A model generated the notes under the pieces. That model was not told the origin of the DNA, searched no databases, and saw nothing but the letters and a program-made list of their open reading frames with translations. Of a DNA stretch of 64,000 bases, positions 35,573-56,809 are shown in pieces (within the stretch, counting starts at the first letter, position 1; each line of letters starts with the position of its first letter). Source of the stretch: Rhodohalobacter barkolensis. Lineage in GTDB: Bacteria; Bacteroidota; Rhodothermia; Balneolales; Balneolaceae. Both the position numbers and the translations under genes were made by a program. The stretch lies in contig NZ_PISP01000001.1 in assembly GCF_002834295.1 (NCBI RefSeq), positions 1,054,001 through 1,118,000 on the forward strand, read 5' to 3'.

Positions 35573-35900
35573 ATCTACCCCCTTGTTTTTGTTTTTGGTA
35601 GTTAGAAATTCTTCATTTGATTTTGAAATAATAGATTCTGCTCTCCCCCTTTTTTGGCATCATCTATGATTGAAGAATTGTACTTTAATTATTTATAAAT
35701 ATTTGATTTAAGGTTCAATATTTCCAATCAAGATTATTTTTTTATAAAAACTGTAAGGATTTTGCCGTTCTCGTTCCTTATGACCTTAGGTGTTATATCT
35801 TAGAAAATCATTTGCAGAAAACTTGAAATTATTACACTTTTTCGGATCAAATAAGTAGGTGTTTTTTATTACCCCGGGGTGTACGATAAATTGGATAAAT
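35573..35900. other. 328-nt intergenic region between divergent genes
   Basis: AT-rich region between the leftward sorting-domain gene and the rightward Ser/Thr kinase gene. It should hold both promoters. Homopolymer runs (for example around 35585-35600 and 35739-35756) are present, but no repeat, hairpin with T-run or convincing small gene was seen. Confidence 0.5.
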
Positions 35901-54837: not shown

Positions 54838-54940
54838 TCAATATCATCTAATTATTTCGTAACAAATCCTTCCCGAAACACTCTTTTATATGCAATAGGA
54901 ATGTGCTAAATTGTCGGCGCTGATACACAACCGCTCAAAT

Positions 54941-55915
54941 ATGTCTGATATCAAACATTTTTACTACGATAACGAGCAGTGCGAATTTGTTCCTGTTATC
55001 TACGATAAAAAGAAAAAAATATTTAACGCTCTCTCATTTTGGATAATCAACGGTATTGTGATGGCCAGTATTGCTATCATTGTATTATCCAATTTTATTG
55101 GTTCCCCTGCAGAAATTGCTTTAAAAGCTGAGAATGATGCGTTAATGAATCAGTTACAAACCACCCGTGTTTCCATCACGGAGCTTGAATCGGAACTAAG
55201 CACTATTTCTGAACTGGATAACGAGATGTATCGATCAGTTTTAGGATTAAATCCCATATCCGATGATGAAAGAATGGCAGGTACAGGTGGTACAGACCCC
55301 TACTCCGATTTTGATCTCTACAGCGAAGATGCTTCAGAAATTTTACGCTGGACAGCTTCCCGGCTTGATAACTTGGAAAGACGACTGAGTATTCAGAAAA
55401 TGTCTTTTGAAGAGATAAAATCCTACTACAACGAAAATCAGGAAAGGTTGAAGCATGTCCCTGCCATTCGTCCGGTGAACGGAATTTTGTTAAGCGGATA
55501 CGGACCAAGAATTCATCCTGTTCTAAAATACAGAAGGATGCACGAAGGTATTGATTTCCGCGCAAACATCGGTACTGATATCTATTCAACCGGTGAAGGC
55601 GTGGTTAAATATGCCGGAAGAAGAGGCAACTACGGCCTTTTGGTAGAAATAGATCACGGATTTGGATACGTAAGCCGATATGCACATATGTCTGGTTTTG
55701 CAGATGGAATCAAAACTGGCGCAAAGATCGAACGTGGTCAACTTATTGGGTATTCAGGTGAATCTGGTATGACGAACGGACCACATCTCCATTACGAAGT
55801 GCATTTTGAAGGTGAAGCTGTAGACCCGCTTAATTATCTTTTTGCAGAAATCACTCCTGAAGAGTATTTGATGTATAAAGATATTGCAGAGAATAACCCA
55901 ATGTCGATGGATTGA
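54941..55915 (+). CDS. M23 metallopeptidase with coiled coil
   Basis: The start is placed at ATG 54941 (MSDIKHFYYD); upstream codons to a TTG at 54911 look unsupported. The 324-residue protein has a cytosolic N-terminus, a transmembrane helix (about residues 34-52), a coiled coil (about 62-100, LKAENDALMNQLQTTRVSI), and an M23 domain with H and D in RMHEGIDFRANIGT, YAHM and an intact GPHLHYEVHF. It should cut peptidoglycan or activate an amidase in the periplasm. Its canonical HxH contrasts with the HLC variant in the other M23 protein at 39614-40888. Confidence 0.9.
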   Translation: MSDIKHFYYDNEQCEFVPVIYDKKKKIFNALSFWIINGIVMASIAIIVLSNFIGSPAEIALKAENDALMNQLQTTRVSITELESELSTISELDNEMYRSVLGLNPISDDERMAGTGGTDPYSDFDLYSEDASEILRWTASRLDNLERRLSIQKMSFEEIKSYYNENQERLKHVPAIRPVNGILLSGYGPRIHPVLKYRRMHEGIDFRANIGTDIYSTGEGVVKYAGRRGNYGLLVEIDHGFGYVSRYAHMSGFADGIKTGAKIERGQLIGYSGESGMTNGPHLHYEVHFEGEAVDPLNYLFAEITPEEYLMYKDIAENNPMSMD

Positions 55916-55960: not shown

Positions 55961-56293
55961 TCACCCGGTAATTTTCATAATTCCCGGCTCTACATCATTC
56001 TCATCCGATTGAGAAGTCAAATCGATCCCTTTGCTCTTTTTTAGAACCACATTAAAAAGAAATGACAAGGCTGATTTGGCCTGCAGTATCTCCCCTTTCG
56101 TTCTATTCACATTACTTTCCAGAGATGATAAAAAATAATCTCTCTGCCATAGCCTAATCTGGCTCGAATGAACGACAGACATCTCTTCAAGGAATTTAGA
56201 TACCCATTTTAGAGCACTCTTCTCGGCAACATAGTTGGCTTGTTTTCTGCGAAGTTCAATTCTTAAGTTCGATAGGATTAAATCTCTTCTCAT
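55961..56293 (-). CDS. Stand-alone recombinase SAM-like domain protein
   Basis: A 110-residue protein whose start is the ATG at 56291-56293, placed by the AAGGAG ribosome site five bases upstream. Residues about 20-85 follow the pattern of the N-terminal core-binding (SAM-like) domain of tyrosine recombinases, close to integron integrases: EKSALKWVSKFLEEM...IRLWQRDYFLSSLESN...TKGEILQAKSALSFLFNVVL. The catalytic domain is absent: the frame ends after a short polar tail, and only 45 nt remain before the neighbouring M23 stop. It lies about 150 nt from ssrA, a common integration target. It could be a remnant of an integrative element or a domesticated DNA-binding domain. The intact frame and good ribosome site favour an expressed protein. 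Confidence 0.65.
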   Translation of the reverse strand: MRRDLILSNLRIELRRKQANYVAEKSALKWVSKFLEEMSVVHSSQIRLWQRDYFLSSLESNVNRTKGEILQAKSALSFLFNVVLKKSKGIDLTSQSDENDVEPGIMKITG

Positions 56294-56298
56294 TGTTT

Positions 56299-56304
56299 CT
56301 CCTT
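56299..56304 (-). promoter_or_regulatory. Ribosome binding site of the SAM-like gene
   Basis: On the minus strand AAGGAG ends five bases before the ATG at 56291-56293. This sets the start at that ATG rather than at an upstream TTG (56330-56332), which would add 13 codons spanning the site. Confidence 0.65.
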
Positions 56305-56396
56305 TTTTCTTATAAGAAACAGATAGATCCAAATCCTGACAGAATTTTTTGAATTAATTCTCTTTACACTGAAAAATACTATCCGGTAAACTCCAT

Positions 56397-56430
56397 AAAA
56401 AAAGCTCTCAATCAACGATTGAGAGCTTTT
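56397..56430 (-). terminator. Intrinsic terminator of ssrA
   Basis: A perfect 13-bp stem (56401-56413 with 56417-56429) around a 3-nt loop is followed on the minus strand by T residues, giving a run of seven. It lies 15 nt past the mature 3' end of the tmRNA. The sequence is nearly symmetrical, so it may also stop rightward transcripts. Confidence 0.9.
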
Positions 56431-56443
56431 AAATTACTTGAAG

Positions 56444-56809
56444 TGGAGCTGGCGGGAGTTGAACCCGCGTCCGAGAAGGTAAATCGTCAAGCATCTACAT
56501 GCTTAGCTATTGATTAAGGTTTCGGATGAAGCAATGCTCAATAGCAAAGCAACTCCACCCTATTCTGTATTAAGTTCTCCAGCCACGCGACAGACACGCC
56601 CTTCGGAAAAGCCAGTTTTATCGGCGCTCGCAATGGGGCCTACTGGCAAGACGCCCAAGGGAACGGACTCGTCAGTTTAAGCTGCGAGTCTGTAAGAGTA
56701 ATTGTTGTCAACTACTTTTATTCCATGATGAATGATTAACGAGATTCATCGGTCAATCTCGGCATGCAGCCTGCAATTGTACTCAACCCGTCGAATCCGG
56801 TACAGCCCC
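56444..56809 (-). ncRNA. ssrA: Transfer-messenger RNA (tmRNA)
   Basis: The 5' end GGGGCTGTACCGG (from 56809) pairs with CAGCTCC near 56451-56445 to form the acceptor stem. The T-arm GGCGGGAGTTGAACCCGCGTCC on the opposite strand is the classic tmRNA 3' landmark. The total is about 366 nt. CCA is not encoded: the gene shows discriminator A, then CTT. The messenger part encodes a tag ending ...YSYRLAA and TAA (see the entry at 56677-56709). tmRNA with SmpB frees stalled ribosomes and tags the unfinished protein for proteolysis. A short TTTG motif just upstream (in GTTCTTTG) resembles the -7 element of Bacteroidota promoters. Confidence 0.95.
56677..56709 (-). other. tmRNA tag reading frame
   Basis: Inside ssrA, reading from 56709 to 56677, the codons GAC AAC AAT TAC TCT TAC AGA CTC GCA GCT TAA encode DNNYSYRLAA. 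The preceding TAGTT resembles the TAGTC that precedes the resume codon in E. coli, which places resumption at GAC. An alternative start two codons earlier would give VVDNNYSYRLAA. The LAA end is the usual ClpXP degradation signal. Confidence 0.75.

Follow-up and report, generated by a model that had tools for sequence, protein, structure and literature searches.

A small gene beside ssrA in Rhodohalobacter barkolensis encodes what is probably a domesticated core-binding (CB) domain of the integron-integrase (IntI) type, belonging to a competence and recombination regulon of an ECF sigma factor and acting as a DNA-binding accessory of recombination. This reading was reached by comparison, from fold, clade, selection, promoter sharing and a conserved, self-targeted sigma operon.

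In the window, i.e. the whole stretch of 64,000 nt analyzed, the gene occupies positions 55961–56293 (-) and encodes a 110-aa protein, P0001, which was analyzed by profile searches and structure modelling. As recorded in the initial annotation, the frame is intact and a ribosome-binding site is present, AGGAG being contained in a short leader before the ATG (56294–56311, (-)). The gene lies just 3' of ssrA (tmRNA, tag DNNYSYRLAA; 56443–56809, (-)), with which it makes up the span 55961–56809, and its convergent neighbor is an M23-type peptidase-like gene (54911–55915, (+)), named by reading its sequence and common to the window and the L003 and L004 loci. P0001 is composed of a basic four-helix domain (residues 3–87) followed by an acidic, disordered tail ending in EPGIMKITG. 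Residues 7–86 match Phage_int_SAM_4 (PF13495) at 1.1e-4, below the gathering score (the curated Pfam cut-off), and do so as a stand-alone protein. The integron integrase profile TIGR02249, of 315 positions, is matched over positions 1–85 at 1e-6, with 28.3 bits versus a full-length cut-off of 265. The match to tyrosine recombinases is confined to the N-terminal domain, and the catalytic domain is absent; with such a score and a CB domain alone, the protein is a derivative of an integrase and not an integrase.

An AlphaFold2 model of P0001 built on 19 sequences showed the four-helix CB fold over residues 3–87, with pLDDT mostly >90. Helices spanning residues 3–16, 21–37, 48–60 and 66–87 were modelled at high confidence, and the tail was disordered from residue 89. 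The top match among solved structures was the CB domain of VchIntIA (PDB 2A3V; 84 residues, 1.9 Å, Z 11.9), followed by XerA, the N-terminal domain of an archaeal integrase, a Xer recombinase and lambda Int. Profile matches and model thus agree with the initial proposal of a lone recombinase CB domain. The likeness to VchIntIA extends beyond the fold to an N-terminal basic patch, R11, R15 and R16, and to E13 and E24, which are retained as in related full integrases. By contrast, P0001 has no catalytic domain, its helix D is altered, and it carries an acidic tail with a conserved C-terminus. Where 23 related full integrases all begin helix D with T-Q-N, the clade of lone CB proteins has E/D-L-L, and S8, S39, Q45, R47, W49, L70 and K73 are newly fixed in this clade. 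Loss of TQN and acquisition of new conserved residues indicate that the protein has been neofunctionalized and is not a simple dominant-negative integrase. The contrast between a basic core (pI about 10) and an acidic tail (about 4–5) is found in nearly all short homologues.

A search of 98 related genomes retrieved 18 further short homologues of the same size, which places the lone CB gene far from chance. Counting the window gene, short orthologues are present in 16 of 28 genomes of the genus and in three from two sister genera; cultivated carriers are R. halophilus JZ3C29 and R. sulfatireducens WB101. The short homologues are 30–65% identical to P0001, begin alike and share HSSQIRxWQ, and most end in EPGxFRITA/G right at the stop codon. 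In a tree of CB domains, with few columns and a long branch for L020, all 19 form a single clade (support 99/100). Values of dN/dS in close pairs were 0.088, 0.065, 0.061 and 0.048, with dS near saturation in most, indicating purifying selection. Same-length orthologues, purifying selection and the CB fold uphold the view of the initial annotation that a function has been kept: Rhodohalobacter and its near relatives conserve the gene product as a protein in its own right, and it is not scrap from a broken integrase. From these sequence comparisons we conclude that the gene is a domesticated CB domain of integron-integrase ancestry. Several genomes of the genus, e.g. G005 and G011, have comEC and the sigma factor described below without a lone CB gene, which is therefore accessory or dispensable.

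Comparison of the regions upstream of the 19 lone CB genes revealed TGTAAGG, 14 nt and then a GGTTCATAC-like sequence. The resulting 30-nt element, TGTAAGG-N14-GNYTCWTAY, ends 14–29 nt before the ATG and was found with ≤2 mismatches at 18 of 19 loci, the exception being L007, where a poly-T run occurs near a contig end. It is kept although the flanking genes differ between loci, and no second conserved site was seen beside it upstream of the 19 genes. Conserved -35 and -10 blocks with fixed spacing, common to the regulon, characterize it as an ECF-type promoter. The window gene carries it as TGTCAGG-N14-GTTTCTTAT (56312–56341, (-); in full TGTCAGGATTTGGATCTATCTGTTTCTTAT), ending 18 nt upstream of the ATG and deviating, in the blocks TGTCAGG and TTCTTAT, by one mismatch from the consensus. 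A second copy in the window (TGTAAGGATTTTGCCGTTCTCGTTCCTTAT; 35752–35781, (+)) lies just upstream of a gene, starting at about 35859, whose sequence suggests a Ser/Thr kinase with TPRs and which is a possible regulon member or signalling input.

In the window genome, sites precede genes for a ComF-family protein, YifB/ComM, ComEC, RecA, SSB, a ComEA-type protein, a RecQ-like helicase, RadC, the integron integrase and the lone CB protein, as well as several REP-associated/IS200-like transposases, several four-helix-bundle proteins and a DUF559-like protein. At ≤3 mismatches this genome contained 93 sites versus 51 in the control, and as the excess was only about twofold, single weak sites were not trusted alone. 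With one mismatch allowed, site and control counts in three other genomes were 36/4, 35/6 and 19/4, and comEC, radC, intI, lone CB, four-helix-bundle, GxxExxY, DUF559 and transposase genes appeared again in their lists. Exact matches numbered 348 versus 1 in the control across 24 genomes of the genus. The element was carried by comEC at 14 of 14 loci of the genus (≤2 mismatches), a level of match reached by a shuffled 500-bp sequence in 14 of 4000 cases, and by full-length intI in 20 of 20 cases across the order; the negative control gyrB had it in 0 of 11 genomes. The prediction that the regulon includes dprA, a core transformation gene, failed (0 of 11 loci). Membership of the DNA-uptake genes comEC and comEA and of recombination genes is as in a late competence regulon, with dprA outside. 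The existence of a competence and recombination regulon that includes intI is well supported by these sequence comparisons. The open-licence papers searched contained no account of natural transformation in these bacteria, and none of those retrieved described this kind of regulon or a lone CB protein of an integrase acting in competence.

Many unlinked genes for four-helix-bundle proteins (23S rRNA IVP, TIGR02436) bear this competence-type promoter, as do genes of the REP-associated/IS200-like transposase, GxxExxY and DUF559 families, which points to an involvement of these families in DNA uptake or mobility. Element-bearing orphan loci are L033, L038, L039, L045, L046, L054, L066, L067, L073, L074, L081 and L086–L089. 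At G000:C2:374063–375387 (L048–L050), several promoter-like elements are clustered within 1.3 kb with no obvious downstream ORFs and may be repeat or non-coding units.

A candidate for the sigma factor is encoded next to radC. Almost all of the 30 loci compared run from radC through a gene for a 175–180-aa protein and the element to an anti-sigma-like/TPR gene, and in most of them a second element precedes radC. With TIGR02937 (sigma70-ECF), the 180-aa protein scores 38.3 bits (9.9e-10), just under the cut-off of 42.9, and the top Foldseek matches of its model, of moderate confidence, were ECF sigma factors such as SigE, SigH, SigW and AlgU (probability about 1). Judged by its sequence, the product of the gene after the element combines an anti-sigma-like segment with a hydrophobic stretch and TPRs. 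Relatives of the sigma factor, paralogues included, occur in 90 of the 98 genomes. Since self-targeted promoters are typical of ECF operons, the radC-linked sigma factor is the likely, though not proven, user of TGTAAGG-N14-GNYTCWTAY, an assignment based on synteny and self-targeting. The arrangement radC–ECF sigma–element–anti-sigma/TPR (L117–L146) is kept across the genus and near relatives and is a good candidate for the operon of a master regulator.

The integron integrase of the window genome has 320 aa and scores 406 bits with TIGR02249, well over the cut-off given above, and the gene bears the element 11 nt before its ATG. No convincing attC repeats of a cassette array were found within 20 kb. 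Upstream of intI, three imperfect direct repeats lie 46–50 nt apart (L201:11667–11786; G000:C6); because they contain GTTAAAT or GTTACAT on the intI strand, close to the GTTRRRY core, they may represent an attI-like site. In genus g7, other short CB genes of 103–120 aa (L102, L103, L114, L030, L097 and L095), much closer to intI, also bear the element; two of them have a full intI nearby and two adjoin a tadA-like gene, and one orthologous pair showed a dN/dS of about 0.08. The tree of CB domains is compatible with both a single and a multiple origin of these short CB genes. Among the 28 genomes of the genus, 10 have both the lone CB gene and intI, 6 only the former, 5 only the latter and 7 neither (Fisher p 0.45), and G012, a 99%-complete genome in 10 contigs, has the lone CB gene and no intI. 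These counts do not support an obligate partnership with intI.

Taken together, these comparisons suggest how the protein could act. When the sigma factor is active, ComEC, ComEA, ComF, ComM, RecA, SSB, RadC and IntI would be made together with the lone CB protein. Judging from fold and charge, the basic CB domain would bind DNA or recombination intermediates, without cutting since the catalytic domain is missing, and a partner could be docked by the acidic, disordered tail, whose C-terminal peptide is conserved. In this way the small protein would assist or modulate recombination with incoming DNA. As its promoter is common to DNA-uptake, recombination and intI genes, it probably works during uptake of foreign DNA, and we infer that it is a DNA-binding accessory of transformation. 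For the wider proposal, that an undescribed ECF-sigma regulon of Balneolaceae co-induces intI and DNA uptake and that CB domains, freed perhaps more than once, tune the recombination of incoming DNA, we see the chances as even.

The initial annotation had also considered that the gene might be left over from a decayed integrative element, and had treated ssrA as relevant context. ssrA is a common integration site, and the gene lies just 3' of it. However, ARAGORN placed a tmRNA gene beside only 2 of the 19 lone CB genes, those of the window and of L004 (R. halophilus), so that the orthologues do not always adjoin ssrA; the others adjoin PaaI-like thioesterase/acyl-CoA ligase genes, a conserved ~380-aa gene or unrelated genes (functions read from sequence). 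In keeping with the initial annotation, the 64,000-nt window contains no repeat of the ssrA 3' end, and neither an element remnant nor a catalytic remnant was seen. Phage records gave no match, and plasmid records returned mostly integron integrases plus one marginal unannotated match. The orthologues of conserved length that are under purifying selection away from ssrA, together with the missing 3' repeat, effectively rule out a decaying remnant at ssrA, and we judge the adjacency coincidental and ssrA functionally unrelated to the lone CB gene.

Other roles are less remote from the data. The protein could be devoted to the integron integrase, or to XerC/D, as an antagonist or helper that occupies core sites or joins synapses and so restrains site-specific recombination while the integrase is induced; descent from IntI-type CB domains, the promoter shared with intI in all 20 cases and the element-bearing short genes of g7, two of which have a full intI close by, speak for this, but the helix-D TQN of full integrases is lost and presence of the gene does not track intI, as G012 illustrates, which makes a strict anti-integrase role less likely. 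We consider this possibility rather unlikely. Similarly improbable is that the regulon, instead of serving competence, is one of DNA repair or of general stress and mobile DNA, in which the lone CB protein serves repair: it contains recA, ssb, radC, recQ and transposase-like genes, and dprA lies outside, but comEC, comEA, comF and comM are members, and the list overlaps the late competence regulon of pneumococcus (PMC6560143). A small, basic, co-regulated protein with a DNA-binding type of fold might also regulate the competence regulon, by repressing it or shutting it off, or be nucleoid-associated; as no second conserved site lies upstream of the 19 genes and the fold is not that of a known repressor, this is more doubtful still.

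If the preferred reading of a recombination accessory within a competence regulon is correct, a sigma factor switching on both cassette integrase and DNA uptake would couple gene capture directly to transformation in a further phylum. It would also place the four-helix-bundle/23S IVP, GxxExxY, REP-associated transposase and DUF559 families, and a stand-alone integrase domain, in the context of DNA uptake, and the roles of these orphan families and of the lone CB protein become testable in cultivated Rhodohalobacter. A close functional parallel is the ComX regulon of pneumococcus, in which a sigma factor drives uptake and recombination genes, the late genes including comEA, comEC, comFC, radC, ssbB and recA (PMC6560143). 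By contrast to that system, the sigma factor proposed here is of the ECF type, the promoter is different, dprA is outside, and intI, lone CB, REP-associated transposase and four-helix-bundle genes are included. In Vibrio, both SOS and catabolite control are known to act on integron integrases, and integrase control by SOS and CRP has been reviewed (PMC8876359). Integrase expression is there coupled to a stress state and to incoming DNA, as it would be here, whereas in these bacteria intI has an ECF-type promoter in common with DNA-uptake genes.
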